From: a bacterium
Lineage (GTDB): Bacteria > Acidobacteriota > Aminicenantia > Aminicenantales > Aminicenantaceae
Length of the DNA stretch: 64,000 nucleotides
Direction of reading: 5' to 3'
Assembly: GCA_018335295.1 (NCBI GenBank)
Contig: JAGXKI010000001.1
Span: 98,428 to 162,427 of the forward strand
Shown: positions 38,870 through 40,432 of the stretch, piece by piece
Position numbering within the stretch: the stretch's first letter is position 1
How the letters are laid out: the number at the start of each line of letters is the position of its first letter
Notes under the pieces: generated by a model
What the model saw: the letters and a program-made list of their open reading frames with translations, nothing else
What the model was told of the DNA's origin: nothing
Databases searched by the model: none
Made by a program: the position numbers and the translations under genes

Positions 38870-39298
38870 TTATTTTTCCAGTTTGTCTAAGAAATCATCC
38901 ACTTGGCGGATATATTCTTTATAATCAGAGAAGGCTATCGATAAAGTCCCATAGACTTTTCTGTCGTCTATATCCATGTATTCATGGACGATGATATTTC
39001 TCATCCCTCCCGAACCTTTCAATTTGTTGGCCAGCTCCTGATCAATGAGTCCTACTTCGGCAGCTTTTAAAAAGGATGAGGTGTAATCTTCCGGAGGCCG
39101 TTCTCCAGATTCCAGTACCACATGAGTGTTGATATCGGAGGCCCACTCCACGATCAACTGGATCAACCTTTCTGCAGAAGTTTTTTTATAGAAATCAGAG
39201 ACATATTCGTTGAATGTGGAATCAGCGATGGGCTTGAGTTTATCCAGGTACATATTGAGTCGAGAAAGCTTTCTCCTTACCAATTCTGAATTTATCAT
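38870..39298 (-). CDS. hepT: HepT-family ribonuclease toxin (DUF86)
   Basis: A 142-residue HEPN protein with the RX4HXY site RNIIVHEY. The order mntA-hepT, with a 4-nt ATGA overlap, gives translational coupling. Its sequence is clearly different from the other three HepT domains in the window, so these are not recent tandem duplicates. Convergent with tRNA-Gly. Confidence 0.92.
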   Translation of the reverse strand: MINSELVRRKLSRLNMYLDKLKPIADSTFNEYVSDFYKKTSAERLIQLIVEWASDINTHVVLESGERPPEDYTSSFLKAAEVGLIDQELANKLKGSGGMRNIIVHEYMDIDDRKVYGTLSIAFSDYKEYIRQVDDFLDKLEK

Positions 39299-39702
39299 GG
39301 TTGTATCTTTCCCAGGGCCTTTTTTATGTACAATTTTTCCATCTGTCTAAATTTCTTTGAATCCATGTACCGGGCCACAGCTTGAATTCGGAATCGTTGA
39401 AAGTTTCCCTTTTTTTCTTCATACAAAGCCTTCCCGTTTACAGCTACCTGGTAGGTGATGAGAGGTTCTGCTCCATTGAGGAAGACCGGATCAAATTGGC
39501 TGCCGAATACTTCGCTGAATTCATTTATCATATTGAGTTGGGTCTTCAAATCAAACTTTTTCCGGCCTAGGATTCCAATATCTATGTCACTCTGGTCCCT
39601 TGGATGACCCTGTGCAAAGGACCCATGCAAAATGAGCAATTGAATATGGTATTTCTGGCAGAGTCTATTTAATCTTTGTTTGTTGATTTTTAAGTTTCTC
39701 AT
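39295..39702 (-). CDS. mntA: MntA-family nucleotidyltransferase antitoxin
   Basis: A 135-residue minimal nucleotidyltransferase with an exact GSX10DXD motif (HGSFAQGHPRDQSDIDI) and FDPVFLNG as a later acidic strand. It AMPylates the partner HepT in characterised systems. The C-terminal RYMDSKKFRQMEKLYIKKAL helix is likely where it contacts the toxin. Confidence 0.9.
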   Translation of the reverse strand: MRNLKINKQRLNRLCQKYHIQLLILHGSFAQGHPRDQSDIDIGILGRKKFDLKTQLNMINEFSEVFGSQFDPVFLNGAEPLITYQVAVNGKALYEEKKGNFQRFRIQAVARYMDSKKFRQMEKLYIKKALGKIQP

Positions 39703-39917
39703 TTGATTTGCTTTTTAAGATTATATCACAAATGCTTTTTTAAATAAGGTAGAATTTGGCTCTTTCCCACCAAATCCCTGCTCAAAGGCTGCTAAGTAGA
39801 GGAGTTTGGGTTAATTTTTTTCAACGTAAGTTACAGAAACGGAATCTCTATTTTGATTGAAAATTGGGGTAAGGAAAAGTTGAAAAAATGTGGACTAGAA
39901 AAATAGTAAAAAATTTA

Positions 39918-39946
39918 TTGACAGGAAAGGGGTTGAAACCTATATT
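39918..39946 (+). promoter_or_regulatory. Sigma-70 promoter of the candidate small RNA
   Basis: TTGACA (39918-39923), 17 nt, TATATT (39941-39946). The predicted transcript start, 7-8 nt later, is 39953-39954, exactly the first base of the GGTGGGTGGC stem. Confidence 0.65.
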
Positions 39947-39953
39947 CCTTAAT

Positions 39954-40085
39954 GGTGGGTGGCAGAACCACAGATCAAATATCGGTTCCAGGTCCTTGTT
40001 CCGAAGCGTCAGATCTTACTTAAAAAGTATGAATGCGGATTATCCGCAGCGCTCTGACCTGCATGGAACGCCGCCCACCCTTTTT
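39954..40085 (+). ncRNA. Candidate structured small RNA, about 132 nt, 6S-like architecture
   Basis: A GC-rich island inside 730 bp of AT-rich intergenic DNA. GGTGGGTGGC (39954-39963) pairs along ten positions with GCCGCCCACC (40070-40079), and a T5 run follows. Inside, GTTCC/GGAAC, AGG/CCT and GTCAGA/TCTGAC continue the rod with asymmetric bulges. Two small apical hairpins follow: TACTT-AAA-AAGTA and TGCGGA-TTA-TCCGCA. A strong promoter points at the first stem base. The closed rod with a large internal bulge recalls 6S RNA, but no family consensus was recognised; SRP RNA and known riboswitches do not fit. The ORF at 39888-40166 is considered spurious. Confidence 0.6.
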
Positions 40086-40432
40086 CATTACCAAAATTTT
40101 TATTACCAAAAGCGTGCCAAAAAGTATATCAAAAAGGGGTCAGGTCCGGCCATTTCTTTTCAATAATTTAACCTGAGTTTTCCACAGATTTGGGGCCAAA
40201 AATCGAGGTTTTTGGGGCCAAAAAACGCGTATATTCCTCCTTTTTTCTGTGTAAAAGTACTACTAATATCTTATAATAAAATAATTGGCCGGGCTCATTC
40301 CCATTAATTAGAACCGTCCCCATTAATTGTTAATCCTGAATTTTGAGTGGAGAGGGATTTCCTGTAAAATAAGAAAATCAATTTAGACGTAACTTTCAGA
40401 AATGATCGATTCCATCGGAGGATGAAACAGAT
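40086..40432. other. Intergenic stretch between the small RNA and the octanoyltransferase gene
   Basis: Contains a half-copy of the REP-like sequence (GGGGTCAGGTCCGG near 40136), the 13-mer TTGGGGCCAAAAA twice about 23 bp apart (about 40191 and 40214), and CCCATTAATT twice (about 40300-40330). No gene. Confidence 0.4.

Follow-up and report, generated by a model that had tools for sequence, protein, structure and literature searches.

To our knowledge, few free-standing bacterial RNAs combine a conserved pseudoknotted core with occurrence in several phyla, and the known examples have tended to be biochemically distinctive. Bacterial Y RNA (YrlA), in which the paired ends form a stem with a T-rich tail, occurs sporadically in many phyla. 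6S RNA, about 200 nt long, forms a rod that carries a central bulge (PMC4227106, PMC8414754). Acido-1, Acido-Lenti-1 and Desulfotalea-1 are conserved RNAs of unassigned function, not cis-regulatory, from phyla that overlap those of the family described here; Desulfotalea-1 was rated ambiguous and stands without an accession in the published table (PMC2864571).

The window, the whole 64,000-nucleotide stretch of bacterial DNA that was analysed, almost certainly contains a small-RNA gene with its own promoter. The gene lies in an intergenic gap of 730 bp (39703–40432; 36.8% GC), flanked by a minus-strand HepT/nucleotidyltransferase pair and a plus-strand lipoate-ligase-like (lplA-like) gene. A −35 element and a −10 element are separated by a 17-nt spacer, and 7 nt after the −10 element begins the 5′ strand of a 10-bp closing stem, P1 (GGTGGGTGGC), whose 3′ strand (GCCGCCCACC) is directly followed by CTTTTT. 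GC content is 52% in the RNA block (39954–40079) and 31% and 35% in its flanks. The single-strand fold energy is −57.4 kcal/mol (z = −3.87), a value matched by none of 200 dinucleotide shuffles, and the RNA is present in one copy in its own genome. An earlier note, made on this DNA by eye, had proposed an unannotated structured small RNA from the promoter, the ten-position closing stem, the T-run and a GC-rich block in an AT-rich gap; each of these elements lies where it had been placed, and the proposal is borne out by a promoter position and covariation that are kept across relatives. A coding role for the 92-amino-acid frame at 39888–40166 was rejected: the indels between members have lengths not divisible by three, so the frame is not conserved. 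The features of the locus, with their support in the family, are as follows.

39918–39923, plus strand: −35 element TTGACA; 29 of 38 members match it in at least 5 of 6 positions, starting at −38 to −35 relative to the first base of P1
39941–39946, plus strand: −10 element TATATT, separated by 7 nt from the predicted start; 19 of 38 members share a −10-like peak at −13
39954–40085, plus strand: small RNA, with a start at the first base of P1 and an end at the T-run, both of them predicted; covariance models R1–R3, alignments A6 and A8
39954–39963, plus strand: P1 (closing stem), 5′ strand; two-sided changes in 11 of 12 family P1 pairs
39972–39976, plus strand: P2, 5′ strand AGATC; two-sided changes, for example GATT/AATC, GATC/GATC and GACC/GGTC
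39982–39985, plus strand: hairpin PA, 5′ strand TCGG; changes on both sides, from T-A to C-G and from C-G to T-A
39989–39994, plus strand: P3, 5′ strand CAGGTC, within the loop of PA; two-sided changes in 5 of 6 pairs, and an alignment-free test on 55 sequences
40001–40004, plus strand: hairpin PA, 3′ strand CCGA; support as for its 5′ strand
40005–40008, plus strand: P6, 5′ strand AGCG; AGCG/CGCT in subfamily 1, GGCG/CGCC in subfamily 2
40012–40016, plus strand: P2, 3′ strand GATCT; support as for its 5′ strand
40017–40029, plus strand: P4 hairpin, of varying length and missing from some members; two-sided changes in 2 of 2 counted pairs
40034–40048, plus strand: P5 hairpin TGCGG...CCGCA; two-sided changes in 3 of 5 pairs
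40050–40053, plus strand: P6, 3′ strand CGCT; support as for its 5′ strand
40056–40061, plus strand: P3, 3′ strand GACCTG; support as for its 5′ strand
40070–40079, plus strand: P1, 3′ strand; support as for its 5′ strand
40080–40085, plus strand: CTTTTT after P1, terminator-like end; a T-rich stretch straight after P1 in most members

Two observations concern the surroundings of the gene. The neighbouring genes at 38870–39702 (minus strand), for a HepT-like ribonuclease and a Polbeta/MNT nucleotidyltransferase, are likely to form a HEPN-MNT toxin–antitoxin pair. Downstream of the RNA, positions 40136–40313 hold GGGGTCAGGTCCGG together with inverted and direct repeats (for example TTTGGGGCCAAAAA, present twice), a REP-like arrangement.

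BLASTN against 60 relatives gave one convincing match, in G045, a genome from another family of the same order (E = 6e-7); the other matches were short, and those inspected were non-members. G045 keeps the promoter spacing, the T-run and the closing stem, the last as GGTGAACGGTGAG/CTCGCCGTTCACC, changed on both sides. Such compensatory changes, the absence of which the earlier note had named as one of two signs against its proposal, are thus present in relatives. A covariance model built from the two sequences (R1) identified a third carrier, G084, with TTGACA-N17-TAGCAT-N7. Searching 85,462 species genomes with a pattern for the invariant core yielded 37 stretches, 35 of which were members by covariance model; the remaining two, L054 and L056, were chance pattern matches without support as members. 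Refined models R2 and R3 brought in a second, diverged subfamily with the core TCCAAGTACCGG...CCGGGGCGTCAGGA...TCCTG...CAGGAGCGCC. From a single initial relative, the covariance models thus built up a family of 39 members and 16 more divergent ones, with promoter, closing stem and T-rich end at fixed spacing across family members.

Record titles place the members in Acidobacteriota, Desulfobacterota (Deltaproteobacteria/Desulfobacterales), Planctomycetota/Planctomycetes, Lentisphaerae, Verrucomicrobia, Fermentibacteria, Neomarinimicrobiota and others, a spread that rests on titles of mostly metagenome bins, some contigs of which may be mis-binned. One contig filed as Latescibacterota (L053) continues downstream almost identically to the Desulfobacterales locus L047 and is likely to be mis-binned. 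Carriers make up at least 4 of 142 genomes in the class of the window, at least 8 of 85 in one Desulfobacterota order and at least 18 of 345 in the Desulfobacterota phylum; these counts are lower bounds because only 9–40 candidates were scored per genome, under stricter filters. Most carriers have a single copy, and G493 and G817 have three each. Two genomes hold one member of each subfamily (G508, with L055 and L106; G494, with L039 and L108). Two loci from Desulfobacterota genomes, L234 and L235, retain the 5′ half well and have a diverged 3′ half, and may be decayed or rearranged copies.

Covariation across the family points to a compact, knotted fold. Alignment A8 comprises 39 members and was fitted to the helices outside the pseudoknot; two-sided changes occur in 33 of 43 pairs, compared with 14.8 in shuffles; with 35 members the corresponding values were 21 of 43 and 9.1, and these controls, like the permutations described below, only partly account for relatedness among members. 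When partners were slid by 1–3 columns, paired cells in A8 fell from 96.7% to 32–48%. Because the search pattern fixed part of the core, the members found with it had little room for variation in P6, in the 3′ half of PA and in part of P3; for P6, which the pattern fixed in subfamily 1, the evidence is weaker for that reason.

The pseudoknot helix P3, formed by the PA loop and a stretch close to the 3′ end, was included as a helix in R1 and not in R2 or R3, the models that brought in and aligned the diverged members. Without recourse to an alignment, the PA loops of 55 sequences paired with their own 3′ segments at a mean of −8.6 kcal/mol and with the segments of other members at −5.7 kcal/mol; in the subset without the common CAGGTC/GACCTG pair (n = 28), the values were −7.3 and −4.3. 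None of 10,000 permutations, which ignore relatedness, was as good as own pairing. The pairs that vary among members include GATGTC/GACATC, CATGTC/GACATG and GAGATC/GATCTC, and P3 pairing is poor in a few members (L106 and L226). Such varied complementary pairs would be hard to explain by anything other than a pseudoknot. Where the earlier note had read a bulged rod with two apical hairpins, the hairpins stand as P4 and P5, and the rod gives way to a conserved pseudoknotted core with side hairpins; helix P2, hairpin PA and the pseudoknot were revealed only by comparison, and the reading by eye had overlooked them. Taken together, these sequence comparisons leave very little doubt that the family consists of structured RNA genes, and it is on them that the family, its predicted fold, the fixed position of the putative promoter and T-rich end, and the absence of an obligatory neighbour are established.

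The family did not correspond to a described one. Rfam 15, with 4227 families, gave no match at gathering score for the window or for seven relatives, in line with the new family that the earlier note had offered as one option; a permissive Rfam search with three sequences likewise gave no family match. Across these searches, diverged relatives were without a match too, and YrlA did not appear. Literature searches, which covered few subscription papers, returned no description of the family, and the core strings, among the matches listed, occurred in papers on unrelated topics, mostly microRNA assays.

Overall, the best explanation, which we hold with moderate confidence, is a stand-alone small-RNA gene of a family outside Rfam, encoding a knotted, trans-acting scaffold or decoy of about 130 nt. 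RNA polymerase with a sigma-70-type factor would start from the predicted promoter at the first base of P1, and transcription would stop at the T-run after the 3′ strand of P1, giving a transcript of about 130 nt. P1 would close the molecule and P2 would enclose hairpin PA; the PA loop would form the pseudoknot through P3, with P6 beside it, and hairpins P4 and P5 would project from the compact core. The RNA would then work in trans, most likely as a rigid scaffold or decoy for a protein, or a small ligand, that is produced elsewhere. We consider action in trans probable, and a protein scaffold as the mechanism plausible at slightly short of an even chance.

Action in trans is suggested by the genomic neighbourhood. 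No recurrent partner protein family was found in the fetched flanks of 38 loci, and two large 'families' in the flank clustering were frames running through the RNA itself. Among 23 hand-scored subfamily-1 loci, the next gene was co-directional in 14 and on the opposite strand in 9, and an opposite-strand next gene was also seen at several subfamily-2 loci. With no partner gene conserved nearby and a next gene that frequently lies on the other strand, the RNA most likely acts in trans. Its position is common within lineages and different between lineages, which also suggests a trans-acting gene.

The same neighbourhoods bear on the strongest alternative, a cis-acting leader or attenuator in which P1 and the T-run form a terminator tuned by a ligand-binding knotted core and control the downstream gene. 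P1 does run straight into a T-rich stretch, and in the window the lplA-like gene follows on the same strand. In one Desulfobacterota lineage (L227, L228, L230, L232 and L233), the RNA lies upstream of ppiase (peptidyl-prolyl isomerase) and typA/bipA, or of typA alone; in four of the five genomes, 19–24 nt separate it from the start codon of ppiase or typA. Two other loci have the same transporter downstream. However, the opposite-strand genes counted above, the unrelatedness of the downstream genes across lineages and a distance that often exceeds 150 nt past the terminator-like end make a leader unlikely. A riboswitch or leader would consistently lie upstream of, and be co-directional with, one functional class of gene, which is not what we observed outside the typA lineage; in that lineage the RNA may act in cis.

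The patchy spread over phyla might instead be accounted for by a mobile or selfish element, or by a part in genome defence, a reading to which the sporadic carriers in class and phylum, the three copies in each of G493 and G817, and the REP-like repeats that flank the G045 copy would lend themselves. Against it, genes for transposases, reverse transcriptases or defence do not recur beside the RNA at the 38 loci, the members have no conserved ends besides promoter and T-run, the RNA is usually single-copy, and its position is vertical in some lineages. The RNA is also absent from plasmid, phage and viral collections: phage and plasmid collections gave no matches, and IMG/VR matches to short core patterns were non-members by covariance model (100 of 101 matches scanned, from two pattern searches). 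We regard a mobile or defence origin as improbable.

A base-pairing regulatory sRNA, antisense to mRNAs and perhaps acting with Hfq or ProQ, is similarly improbable. In size, promoter and T-rich end the RNA looks like a typical representative of that class, and P4 and the flank of the PA loop vary among members. The most conserved nucleotides of the family, however, belong to helices, junctions and the pseudoknot; there is neither a long conserved single strand nor a conserved unpaired seed of useful length, and conservation of this kind favours recognition of shape, by a protein or ligand, over antisense pairing.

The weakest alternative is a divergent 6S RNA, which the earlier note had contemplated; such an RNA would imitate an open promoter and sequester RNA polymerase. 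The 6S model RF00013 gave no match at the locus, and its best match in the same genome, elsewhere, scored 11.8 bits against a cut-off of 46.4. Separate canonical 6S RNA scored above the Rfam cut-off in 20 of 36 carrier genomes; 15 of the remainder, including that of the window, had no 6S match reaching E 0.01, and one had a match below the cut-off. A closing stem, an own promoter, a free-standing gene and the lack of a 6S match in the genome of the window, in G045 and in G084 fit a 6S-like RNA, but 6S identity is rejected on the missing model match, the coexistence of canonical 6S, a patchy distribution and covariation that supports a pseudoknotted core with P2, PA, P3, P4 and P5 rather than a rod with a central bulge, and a 6S-like function is highly improbable.

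Returning to the trans-acting scaffold or decoy, we tentatively propose that the family represents a class of free-standing pseudoknotted RNA that spans several phyla and has no earlier description. The core would bind a protein or ligand, and the class may constitute a new kind of trans-acting ribonucleoprotein or RNA sensor. A predicted start, end and fold, together with two subfamilies, make the RNA ready for synthesis, probing and use as bait, and the carriers relevant to follow-up comprise uncultured and cultured anaerobes alike.

Among described RNAs, Acido-1 and Acido-Lenti-1, both of which have Rfam accessions (PMC2864571), do not match the present RNA; Desulfotalea-1, without a Rfam accession, falls outside the Rfam comparison that sets the family apart. 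Y RNA/YrlA, the partner of Ro60 (TROVE), shares the stem of paired ends, the T-rich tail and the sporadic occurrence across many phyla, but a Ro-bound Y RNA is rejected because a TROVE protein was found in 0 of 38 carriers by a search that detected the positive control, Deinobacterium. 6S RNA (RF00013) shares the free-standing gene, the closing stem made by the ends, the own promoter and a copy number of mostly one per genome, and differs in being a rod of ~200 nt, whereas the present RNA has about 130 nt, a pseudoknot and two side hairpins. We conclude that the family is new relative to Rfam and that the way in which it acts may still turn out to be a familiar one.
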